This document shows, piece by piece, positions 2,128-5,458 of a stretch of 64,000 bases of DNA (its first letter is position 1; the number at the start of each line of letters is the position of its first letter). The notes below the pieces were generated by a model that was given only the letters and a program-made list of their open reading frames with translations, was not told the origin of the DNA and searched no databases. This DNA comes from Truepera sp. (GTDB lineage: Bacteria > Deinococcota > Deinococci > Deinococcales > Trueperaceae): positions 1,306,646 to 1,370,645 of the forward strand of contig JAVSMU010000001.1 in the NCBI GenBank assembly GCA_032027045.1, read 5' to 3'. The translations under genes were made by a program, and so were the position numbers.

Positions 2128-3162
2128 TCACCAATCTTCGATGTCGTCGCTGATCGCTTCGGTGTCTATCTTCGCGTATATGCGCGTGGTTTGGATGTCT
2201 GCATGGCGCAAGTGCGCCGCCACGCGCCCAAGGTCATTCGTCTGTTGGTAATATCTTGTGCCGGCACTATGTCTCAATCCATGAACGGCTGCGCCTTGGT
2301 ACTTCACGCCGGCTCGCGCGCATAGCCTCCGGAAGCGCCTCCGGGCATGATCCGCAGCCCAAGGAAGTACGCGGTCGTGGGCACGTTGCCGATTGGGCGT
2401 CTCCGGGCTGTTCGCGAGCACCGCCAGCGCCTCGGCGAGGCGCCGCGTGACGCTGACGTCTGCGGCCTTTCCGCCCTTGCCGGACCGTACGCGCAGCGTG
2501 CCACGCTCCAGCTCGAGATCGGTCCACCGCAGGTCGCTCATCTCGCCGATACGCAGGCCGGCGTGCGCGCCCAAGAGGACCATGACGCGTTCGGCGGGTT
2601 CGGCCAGCTCTAGCAGGGCTTCGACCTCGGAGTCCCGGTAGGGTCGGCGTTTCTCCCAAGCAGGCGTCGGGTCCTTGCCCGCGCTGACGTCCTCGAATGG
2701 CCGCGCTTCGGTGGCCTGCGACCACCTGAGGGCCTTGTAGAGCGTCCGCGCGGCCGACAGCTTCACTTGTAACGTGGCCGGCGAGGGCACCTTGGCGCGC
2801 TTACCGCCTGGAGAGATGCCTGATTCTAGCCGCCTCAGGTACAAGACGCCCGCATCACGGCTCGGGCGCAACAGGTTTTCACCTTGCCACGCGGCCAGCA
2901 GGTCCAGTACGCCGCGCCTATAGGTGCGCAGCGTGTGTTGACTGACGCGCGCGCCCTTGGAGCCGTGCAGGAATAGGTACGCTTCGACGAGCGCCCACAG
3001 CTCGTCCGGATCCCGCTCGGCGGCGGCCTTGGATGCGCGGCGTTTGAGCTCGTCGGCCGGGAGCGTTGCCCAGCCTTCGGCCCGGGCCAACTGGTCGCCT
3101 GTGTAACGGTCGAGGGCGGTGCTGGGACCGGCGTCGCGGTCATCATCTGGGCTCATGCGCAC
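2128..3162 (-). CDS. Xer-type tyrosine recombinase / integrase
   Basis: 344 residues. An N-terminal SAM-like core-binding domain (about 48-150) precedes a C-terminal catalytic domain with the full tyrosine-recombinase set: R204 in AGLRIGE, K229 or K232 in the SGKGGK hairpin, H294-R297 in HGLRH, H320 in LRHADIQTT and nucleophile Y329. The length and two-domain layout match XerC/D/H/S-like enzymes with about 40 extra N-terminal residues, without the arm-binding domain of lambda-type integrases. Start is GTG 3162 or ATG 3156; neither has a clear Shine-Dalgarno. A symmetric 28-bp dif-like sequence begins 10 bp upstream of the start. That pairing suggests a self-contained recombinase/site module for dimer resolution or element exchange; no phage genes are nearby. 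Confidence 0.85.
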   Translation of the reverse strand: MRMSPDDDRDAGPSTALDRYTGDQLARAEGWATLPADELKRRASKAAAERDPDELWALVEAYLFLHGSKGARVSQHTLRTYRRGVLDLLAAWQGENLLRPSRDAGVLYLRRLESGISPGGKRAKVPSPATLQVKLSAARTLYKALRWSQATEARPFEDVSAGKDPTPAWEKRRPYRDSEVEALLELAEPAERVMVLLGAHAGLRIGEMSDLRWTDLELERGTLRVRSGKGGKAADVSVTRRLAEALAVLANSPETPNRQRAHDRVLPWAADHARRRFRRLCARAGVKYQGAAVHGLRHSAGTRYYQQTNDLGRVAAHLRHADIQTTRIYAKIDTEAISDDIEDW

Positions 3163-3172
3163 ACCATTGCAT

Positions 3173-3200
3173 AAGTCTGATAAGGCTAGTTATCAGACTT
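3173..3200. other. dif-like recombination site (11-6-11 bp)
   Basis: Two perfect 11-bp inverted arms, AAGTCTGATAA and TTATCAGACTT, flank a 6-bp centre GGCTAG, 28 bp in all. This is the exact geometry of Xer dif sites, and the arms meet the centre as ATAA-N6-TTAT, as in E. coli dif. Full arm symmetry would suit one recombinase acting as a homotetramer. It lies 10 bp upstream of the recombinase start, like the gene/site pairing of the XerS and XerH systems. Alternatives are an operator for the recombinase gene or a weak terminator. Confidence 0.55.
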
Positions 3201-3251: not shown

Positions 3252-3682
3252 TCAACGCGCGCGGTTCGCCCACCAGGTCCGGAACTCAGCTGGCGCCATC
3301 ACCCTGAGGTCGCCTTTGTCGGCCAAGGCCAGCAAGTGCGCGTCGCGCGACACGAGAACCTCGACCCGCGCGTGAACGGCAAGGTCCACGAACGGTTGGT
3401 CGTGAGGGTCAGCCACACGCATCGTCTCGCCCAACTGTTCCGGTGCTACTTGGCCAGGCACGATCTCCGCGAACGGCAAGTAGTCGCTCAGCAGCTCAGC
3501 GATCTCCGCTTCATCGAGCTGGAACTTCGGGTAGGCAAGCACCCGCATGAGTTCCGCGACCGTTTAGCGCGAAACGACAGGAACCACTTCTCCGGTGCGC
3601 CAAGCGGCTCTCGACCAGCTGAAGCGGTCATTTGGAACACCAACGTCGATACCACGACGTTCGTGTCGATGACGACCCTGAC
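3252..3682 (-). pseudogene. Decayed PIN-domain toxin gene
   Basis: Read across two frames, the reverse strand gives a near-complete PIN-domain ribonuclease. It starts RVVIDTNVVVSTLVF (active-site Asp) at about 3679, continues in another frame as DRFSWSRAAWRTGEVVPVVSR, then a TAA, then TVAELMRVLAYPKFQLDEAE and onward to the stop at 3252. Three lesions are visible. The expected start codon is GTC (3682-3680), one base is missing near 3640, and there is an in-frame TAA near 3565. The remaining open part from 3548 encodes only the C-terminal half. The upstream AbrB-type antitoxin gene is intact, so this is an antitoxin left after toxin loss. Confidence 0.75.
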
Positions 3683-3688
3683 TCCTAC

Positions 3689-3925
3689 CTACTGGCCCCG
3701 CGCCCATGCCACGGCGTTGGCGATATCGTCTTCGCCTATGTCTATACTGGCTAGCTTGCGACGCACCTCGTCAGCCCGGCTCTGCACGAACGGTTCCAAT
3801 ACGATGGTCCCATCTTCGGAACGTACTGCGAAGTAGTCGACGCCCGGGAACCTATCCACGATCTCCTTTGGGAGTGTGATCTGGTTCTTAGAGGTGTTCT
3901 TGGCTACGATCACTGGCTGCCTCAT
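3689..3925 (-). CDS. AbrB/MazE-type antitoxin (SpoVT-AbrB fold)
   Basis: 78 residues from the ATG at 3925. VAKNTSKNQITLPKEIVDRF is the classic swapped-hairpin AbrB DNA-binding motif, followed by FAVRSEDGTIVLEP and an acidic/basic helical tail that would bind a toxin. A longer in-frame start at 4006 adds 27 residues with no family match. The gene directly precedes the dead PIN toxin relic in the same direction with no space for another gene, so the two formed one operon. The antitoxin may still repress its own promoter. Confidence 0.75.
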   Translation of the reverse strand: MRQPVIVAKNTSKNQITLPKEIVDRFPGVDYFAVRSEDGTIVLEPFVQSRADEVRRKLASIDIGEDDIANAVAWARGQ

Positions 3926-4657: not shown

Positions 4658-5458
4658 GTGCCGCTATCAGAGGAACATCTGGCCGAGTTGAAGGACGCGA
4701 AGCGGCGCCTGGAGGACGTTCCGTTCGTCATCTCACTCTCGAATGCCGTCGGGCGACCCATTGAGTTCGCATATGACAAGTTGCCGAAAGCCGCGAGGGA
4801 GCGGATAGGTACGCTCATTGGTAAAGCGCTAGAGAAGGCGGTCGGGTTTGCCTTCACTGGGATGAAGAACGGTGCAGCCCGAGCCCGCAACCAGAGATAT
4901 AAGGGCGCAGTGGCGCTCTCTGGGGCGGCTGGTGGTCTATTCGGCTTGTCGGGTGTTGCGGTGGAGCTGCCTGCTTCGACCCTGACGATGATGCGTTCCA
5001 TCGGCGAGGTTGCACGCGAGAACGGCGAAGACATCACACTCATCGCCACACGCCTCGAGTGCTTGGCGGTCTTCTCGATGGGCGGGCGGTCGGCGGATGA
5101 TGACGCTGCTGACTCGGCGTACTTCGCGACCCGGGCCTGGCAGGCGCAAGTCATCAACAGCGCGGCTAAGTACGCGGAGAACGCCGCTCGCACTGGCGGT
5201 GCAAAAGCAACGGAGGAAGCCATTCCGGTGCTGGTCAAGATGATCCAGCGCATCACGACGCGCTTCGGGGTGAGGCTTACTCAAGCGCAGACCGCCAAGA
5301 TCGTGCCCGTTCTGGGGGCGTTCACTGGCGCCGGCATCAACACTTTGTTCCTCGACTACTATCAGAGCGTTGCGAAAGGACACTTCACGGTGCGGCGCCT
5401 GCAGCGCATTTACGGCGCTGAGATCGTCGAGGCGGCCTACATGGCAACGAAGACTTGA
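4658..5458 (+). CDS. EcsC family protein
   Basis: 266 residues from a GTG with GGGGAGGA just upstream. It has an amphipathic N-terminus, then a Gly/Ala-rich core around residues 85-105 (AVALSGAAGGLFGLSG), ELPASTLTMMRSIGEVAREN, and FSMGGRSADDDAADSAYFATR. This is the pattern of EcsC proteins named after the third gene of the Bacillus ecs locus. The C-terminal half carries a second glycine-rich hydrophobic segment (VPVLGAFTGAGINTLFLDYY). Members are thought to associate with membranes; the biochemical role is unknown. No ecsAB transporter genes adjoin it, so it acts alone here. Confidence 0.85.
   Translation: MPLSEEHLAELKDAKRRLEDVPFVISLSNAVGRPIEFAYDKLPKAARERIGTLIGKALEKAVGFAFTGMKNGAARARNQRYKGAVALSGAAGGLFGLSGVAVELPASTLTMMRSIGEVARENGEDITLIATRLECLAVFSMGGRSADDDAADSAYFATRAWQAQVINSAAKYAENAARTGGAKATEEAIPVLVKMIQRITTRFGVRLTQAQTAKIVPVLGAFTGAGINTLFLDYYQSVAKGHFTVRRLQRIYGAEIVEAAYMATKT

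Follow-up and report, generated by a model that had tools for sequence, protein, structure and literature searches.

In the analysed window, a stretch of 64,000 nucleotides from a Truepera genome, a gene for a tyrosine recombinase stands next to a symmetric 28-bp palindrome. The locus raises the question whether gene and palindrome form a dif/Xer system that resolves chromosome dimers with one recombinase, whether they belong to a mobile module, or whether the palindrome is only an operator. The following features, given in window positions, were considered.

2128-3156, minus strand: xer gene, single tyrosine recombinase, 342 aa from ATG 3156, with PF00589 and PF02899
3163-3171, minus strand: probable extended -10 element, TGC-AATGGT, of a leaderless xer promoter, proposed from the upstream alignment
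3173-3200, no strand: predicted dif-like recombination site, AAGTCTGATAA-GGCTAG-TTATCAGACTT, 11-6-11, with perfect arms and an asymmetric centre
3173-3183, plus strand: gene-proximal arm, AAGTCTGATAA, read from the sequence
3184-3189, plus strand: central 6 bp GGCTAG, predicted strand-exchange region by analogy with Xer sites
3190-3200, plus strand: distal arm, TTATCAGACTT; about 4 bp beyond it, genomes of the genus cease to be homologous
3201-62200, no strand: variable block bordering on the site, with essentially no nucleotide homology at the corresponding place in G003 and G005 when G000 was compared with them by blastn

The recombinase and its gene

The mechanically called ORF spans 2128-3162 and begins at GTG 3162. 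The conserved ATG at 3156 is the more likely start, because the spacing between site and ATG is conserved in relatives. The original prediction had placed the palindrome 10 bp from the gene; the adjacency held, whereas the distance becomes 16 bp with ATG 3156, and a gap of about 16 bp is also found in Thermaceae and Marinithermaceae.

The xer product contains a catalytic domain (PF00589, E=4.7e-23) and a SAM-like core-binding domain (PF02899, E=3.9e-7), and residues R204, K229, H294, R297, H320 and Y329 were invariant in a 12-member alignment including it. On its R-K-H-R-H/W-Y residues and its SAM-like core-binding domain, the protein is a tyrosine recombinase of the Xer subgroup. It passed none of the known equivalog models XerA, XerC, XerD and XerS (NCBIfam bits against cut-off: 85.6/220, 79.2/335, 60.1/330 and 48.3/267, respectively). 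An AlphaFold model (mean pLDDT 80.7, pTM 0.57) matched the folds of archaeal XerA (PDB 5hxy, E 2.1e-11), of XerH bound to palindromic difH (5jjv, E 5.8e-9; 18% identity) and also of XerD. The TM-scores of these matches were moderate (0.42-0.53), perhaps because the domain orientation differs. In two other loci (L054 of G017 and L055, the second copy of G021), a Truepera-type Xer is extended at its N-terminus by about 100 aa or more; this extension holds a helix-turn-helix-like stretch (GVSRERV/GVSRERA) and appears to be fused to the recombinase.

A profile search with PF00589 found four proteins in the genome, including the xer product. The other three (377, 297 and 398 aa) are phage-type integrases that scored poorly against every Xer model and fell outside the Xer group in a tree in which they served as outgroup. 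No protein elsewhere in the genome passed the XerC or XerD model, in support of the earlier proposal that the system has one recombinase, and by these searches the number of Xer-type recombinases in the genome is one. The genome also encodes one FtsK gamma domain (E=1.4e-23).

Uniqueness and terminus position of the site

The 11-6-11 palindrome with ATAA-N6-TTAT junctions was found at 3173-3200 as had been described. No further match to the 28-mer was present in the 64-kb window at up to three mismatches (0 in 100 shuffles), and in the closed 2,919,400-bp genome, which the original prediction had proposed to search for other copies, the 28-mer is unique even with a free centre and up to three mismatches. 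About ten distinct perfect 11-N6-11 palindromes occur in 864 kb of this GC-rich genome, so that symmetry of this kind is by itself nothing unusual; only the site at 3173-3200 among them has an ATAA-N6-TTAT core. A search of the same genome for a second dif of the pattern TTTGATAA-N6-TTATCAAA, with up to two mismatches, returned this site alone.

With dnaA at 2,790,554, the site lies at 182.6 degrees, or 0.507 of the circle. The cumulative GC skew, calculated on 420 kb around the site, reaches its maximum at window position 2214, about 1 kb from the site. Both the expected position opposite the origin and the coincidence with the skew switch were thus borne out. Of seven genomes that are closed or nearly so, six have a gene-site pair 0.49-0.53 of the circle away from dnaA (among them G017 at 0.500, G038 at 0.530, G046 at 0.500, G056 at 0.513 and G077 at 0.524); G062 is the exception, at 0.63. 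If placement were uniform, and with shared ancestry ignored, six of the seven species would come this close to 0.5 (0.031 or less) with a probability of about 4e-7. G021 lies outside these seven: its closest orthologue maps to 0.25, but a second gene copy, of Truepera type and accompanied by a site, maps to 0.49.

Copies of the heptamer GGGGGAG that face the site outnumber those facing away by 70:11 within 200 kb; in held-out DNA the ratio is 28:9 (p = 0.003). The motif was picked from the count in the near region and ranks twelfth of 6,096 7-mers in the held-out DNA. Its polarity reverses within about 17 kb of the site, and it is tentatively put forward as a KOPS-like candidate. The E. coli-type KOPS GGGNAGGG showed no clear skew as a polarity marker, and the octamer GGGGAAGA, which ranked top in the near region, failed in the held-out DNA.

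Conservation of the gene-site pair and covariation of its arms

Homologues were gathered from 61 and then 94 genomes of the order and from a scan of GTDB genomes, which returned no Deinococcaceae chromosomes; for Deinococcus, D. radiodurans included, the analysis thus covered no chromosome, only plasmids of the genus. The pair recurs in Trueperaceae, Marinithermaceae and Meiothermus/Calidithermus and on plasmids of Deinococcus and Oceanithermus. In a tree of 82 proteins, made by a quick method with few outgroups and without XerH, XerS or XerA, the homologues formed two sister clades, one mostly of Trueperaceae and one mostly of Thermaceae and Marinithermaceae, apart from E. coli XerC and XerD.

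Perfect 11-N6-11 palindromes occurred upstream of the gene in 14 of 77 loci, whereas 385 shuffles and 76 downstream regions contained none; even spacers of 4, 8, 10 and 12 scored high too, because they share the same centre and not because of other sites. By reading, a dif-like site stands beside the gene in about 52 of 76 distinct loci. Examples are as follows.

Marinithermus-like site: ATTCCCGTTAA-N6-TTAACGGGAAT
Calidithermus roseus site: ATTTCCCTTAA-N6-TTAAGGGAAAT
Meiothermus luteus site: AAGTGCGTTTA-N6-TAAACGCACTT
M. granaticius site: ATTTCGCCTAA-N6-TTAGGCGAAAT

The arm sequence varies by lineage, and both arms shift jointly with retention of symmetry; the pair is thus kept in related genomes while its arm sequence drifts. 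Over 40 distinct sites, a set selected in part by symmetry, 89% of arm positions were paired, changes on both sides were seen at 10 of 11 pairs, and the covariation score was 0.632 as against 0.149 for shuffled sites. The 23 sites of Thermaceae and Marinithermaceae, which had been taken by their fixed distance from the ATG and not by symmetry, gave 90% paired positions and a covariation of 0.545 (0.180 shuffled). Identical arms that change jointly are what a single DNA-binding protein requires.

A second, undetected recombinase might nevertheless cooperate with the xer product, the symmetry being coincidental and the system a variant of XerC/D. The arms of some relatives are indeed less symmetric (8/11), as would be expected with two binding proteins. 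Symmetric changes on both arms are, however, the rule, and the PF00589 search left only phage-type proteins beside the xer product, so that this explanation is extremely improbable.

No recognisable adjacent site was found in the Trueperaceae loci L014-L016, L021, L023-L028 and L030-L035, nor in family f5, where relatives of the gene are present. Loci L021, L023-L028 and L030-L035 make up a subclade of the recombinase within Trueperaceae that shares about 46-50% identity with the xer product of the window, and several genomes carry a gene of this siteless subclade on top of the paired form. Two further palindromic arrangements were noted. One, GATTTGATAAG-N5-TTATCAAAC, is a second dif-like palindrome in two Trueperaceae genomes (L203, G004:C21:18563-18587; L202, G019:C54:47399-47423); an ORF for a GntR-like regulator follows it in G004, and the palindrome is a candidate operator or second recombination site. 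The other, CGTTCGCGAAA-GGTACA-TTTCGCGCATG, 9/11 symmetric, lies in L046 and L047 (G039 and G058) upstream of a distinct Xer-like gene; this gene is shorter (303 aa in L046) and groups weakly with E. coli XerC/D.

The site and the probable xer promoter

In relatives the site usually has its start at -43 to -45, which leaves about 16 bp up to an ATG, and in most of them a TATACT-like -10 element stands in this gap. In the Truepera site the outer end overlaps a TTGACA. Since ATG 3156 gives the same 16-bp gap, and since TGC-AATGGT replaces, at equal spacing, the TGC-TAAACT of the sister species in the upstream alignment, xer is probably leaderless, with the site over the -35/spacer region. This overlap with the xer promoter makes autoregulation likely besides recombination.

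Homology breaks at the outer edge of the site

The gene-side DNA is collinear core in the species of the genus that were compared (blastn of G000 against G003 and G005). G002 and G003, compared over 2.6 kb, are 98% identical from the site across the gene and past it, whereas the other side shares nothing. The break in homology, about 4 bp outside the distal arm, was repeated in the pairs G002/G005, G003/G005 and G004/G005. Before the conserved arm of the chromosome resumes, the variable block takes up about 59 kb in the genome of the window, as against some 16 kb in G003. The first 2 kb past the site have a GC content of 0.54-0.60 in four genomes, as against about 0.66-0.70 on the gene side. 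An element integrated at the site with a second site copy at its far end was considered and rejected, as none was found at up to three mismatches in the genome or in the flanks examined in G002-G005. The DNA to the left of the G002 site was absent elsewhere in congeners.

Directly beyond the site lie a gene for a Gabija GajB helicase-like protein in G002 (L098:3-1628) and one with a weak TIR-like match in G005 (L108:1923-2789). From these two genes, the position next to dif may be a hot spot for defence genes. Within the variable block of the window, 4658-5458 encodes a protein of the EcsC family (PF12787), which also matches PDC-S29, a candidate defence model, weakly. On the conserved side, 949-2058 holds small genes (a CsbD-like gene, a 104-aa ORF, a 94-aa ORF with a weak holin-superfamily match and a 110-aa ORF), which together look like a stress operon.

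The overlap with the promoter and the broken homology bear in opposite ways on the explanation that the palindrome is an operator only, through which the recombinase-like protein or another regulator controls the promoter without any recombination. Such a role would suit a site directly upstream of the -10 element in most relatives and, in Truepera, one overlapping TTGACA. An operator, however, would not hold the gene opposite oriC across families with different site sequences, nor would it end homology at the outer edge of the site, and the exact breakpoint fits a recombination site better. Moreover, the 11-6-11 arrangement with AT-rich inner ends is recombinase geometry, and in L051 and on two Deinococcus plasmids the site stands 156-249 bp away from the gene. 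An operator-only role is therefore improbable: conservation of the palindrome solely as an operator, which had been named as evidence against the original prediction, is not what was seen, even with the site overlapping a promoter.

Plasmid-borne pairs and the question of a mobile module

Related genes with their own symmetric sites were found on the following plasmids.

Oceanithermus profundus pOCEPR01: ATGTCCACTAA-N6-TTAGTGAACAT
Meiothermus taiwanensis pMtWR-220: ATTTCCCATAA-N6-TTATGCGAAAT
Deinococcus aetherius pDAETH-1: ACTTACGTTTA-N6-TAAACGTAAGT
Deinococcus sp. D7000 p_2: ACTGTTGCTTA-N6-TAAGCAACAGT
D. peraridilitoris pDEIPE01: TTTTACGCTAA-N6-TTAGCGTAAAA

The remaining Deinococcus plasmids examined had weaker sites or none. 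A plasmid contig of G046 matches Oceanithermus pOCEPR01. M. taiwanensis DSM 14542 carries both a chromosomal-type and a plasmid-type pair (L120, L126), whose arms differ, each resembling its own gene lineage, and this difference suggests private site specificities for each replicon.

Just past the site in the window lie a PIN-domain ORF (3252-3548; PF13470, matched in its C-terminal part only) and a MazE/AbrB-like ORF (3689-3916). A PIN/VapC and AbrB pair also adjoins the Xer gene on the Deinococcus plasmids pDEIPE01 and pDrdB. The pair in the window is possibly the remnant of a replicon-stability module.

These observations could point to a mobile or plasmid-derived module, serving plasmid multimer resolution or being the recombinase of an integrated element, and having no role for the chromosome: related pairs sit on pOCEPR01, pMtWR-220 and Deinococcus megaplasmids, the PIN/AbrB genes accompany the recombinase both here and on two plasmids, and a 59-kb variable block abuts the site. 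Against it stand the collinear gene-side DNA within the genus, the terminus position in closed genomes of several families and the lack of a second flanking site copy in the variable block. Such a module is highly improbable, and of the two roles that the original prediction had offered, chromosome dimer resolver and mobile module, the former is favoured, although related copies sit on plasmids.

Proposed mechanism

The gene-site pair is thus very probably a one-recombinase dif/Xer system that resolves chromosome dimers. It shows the sequence traits of this kind of system: one Xer-type recombinase, a unique site at the terminus, and a linkage of site and gene over 16 bp. The sequence evidence consists of the uniqueness and geometry of the site, its terminus position, the conservation of the pair, the concerted change of the arms, the absence of XerC/D and the presence of an FtsK gamma domain; from it we infer binding and cleavage by the xer product, activation by FtsK and autorepression.

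Each site would take up two copies of the one Xer protein on its two identical 11-bp arms, and two sites would synapse in a tetramer. Cleavage and strand exchange would take place at the borders of the asymmetric 6-bp centre, the only part that would give the site a direction. FtsK would pump toward the terminus, bring the sites together and probably activate the reaction. Since the DNA upstream of the xer -10 element is taken up by the site, bound recombinase would probably also repress its own gene.

A broader proposal is offered tentatively, as possible rather than probable, for Deinococcota: that dimer resolution is replicon-autonomous, with each chromosome or large plasmid having its own recombinase and a private, perfectly symmetric dif inside the promoter of that gene. 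Arm specificity would diversify fast, so that co-resident replicons avoid cross-recombination, and the site would double as operator for autorepression and as entry point for defence-like islands.

Comparison with known systems

A dif site and its recombinase were previously unidentified for the Deinococcus-Thermus phylum. In the main text of a dif survey of 641 organisms, the phylum is unmentioned under the names searched (PMC3025954). A 2022 study of D. radiodurans FtsK left the recombinase partner among six candidates (PMC9764985), and in a 2026 study neither a canonical dif nor KOPS polarity could be recognised with confidence in that species (PMC13342612). No description of dif or its recombinase for Truepera, Meiothermus or the whole phylum was found in the open-access literature, subscription papers being outside the scope of the search. 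With the linked pair, concrete dif sites become open to test in Truepera, Meiothermus, Marinithermus, Oceanithermus and Deinococcus plasmids.

Modules of gene and site have already been described as XerS/difSL and XerH/difH (PMC5357621; PMC2731167). XerS/difSL of streptococci and lactococci shares with the Truepera system one recombinase of about 350 aa, a site immediately beside the gene and the terminus location (PMC5357621), but difSL is longer (31 bp), its arms are unequal and its centre measures 11 bp, whereas the Truepera site has 28 bp, a 6-bp centre and identical arms. The Truepera protein reaches 48 of the 267 bits that mark XerS. XerH/difH of Helicobacter and Campylobacter likewise has one recombinase and a site next to its gene and is FtsK-dependent; as described there, the difH arms are imperfect and of another sequence than the Truepera arms, and the phylum is different (PMC5357621). 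Archaeal XerA/dif shares the one recombinase and the 28-bp site, while adjacency of gene and site is not described in the available part of that source (PMC5357621). XerA is the best NCBIfam and PDB-fold match of the Truepera protein, yet at 85.6 bits against a cut-off of 220 (NF040815). XerL/dif of Legionellales, compared by its description, has one recombinase, a location near the terminus and perfectly symmetric arms of 10 bp, and Coxiella has a plasmid-borne XerL copy with an adjacent site; unlike the Truepera pair, gene and site of Legionella XerL are more than 400 kb apart (PMC9765430).

In the Truepera site 22 of 28 bases are palindromic, and the mean for the present system is 21 of 28, as against 16.3 +/- 3.0 in proteobacterial dif (PMC2731167). 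XerCD/dif shares with the Truepera system the length of 28 bp, the 11-6-11 arrangement, the ATAA-N6-TTAT inner ends, the terminus position and the FtsK gamma domain, but Truepera is without a XerC/XerD pair. Cre/loxP of phage P1 resembles it in having one recombinase, identical arms and a direction given solely by the asymmetric centre; it differs in its 13-8-13 site, in working without FtsK and in belonging to a plasmid prophage. The natural series of symmetric arms with cognate recombinases described here, several of them from thermophiles, could supply orthogonal tools of the Cre/loxP kind.
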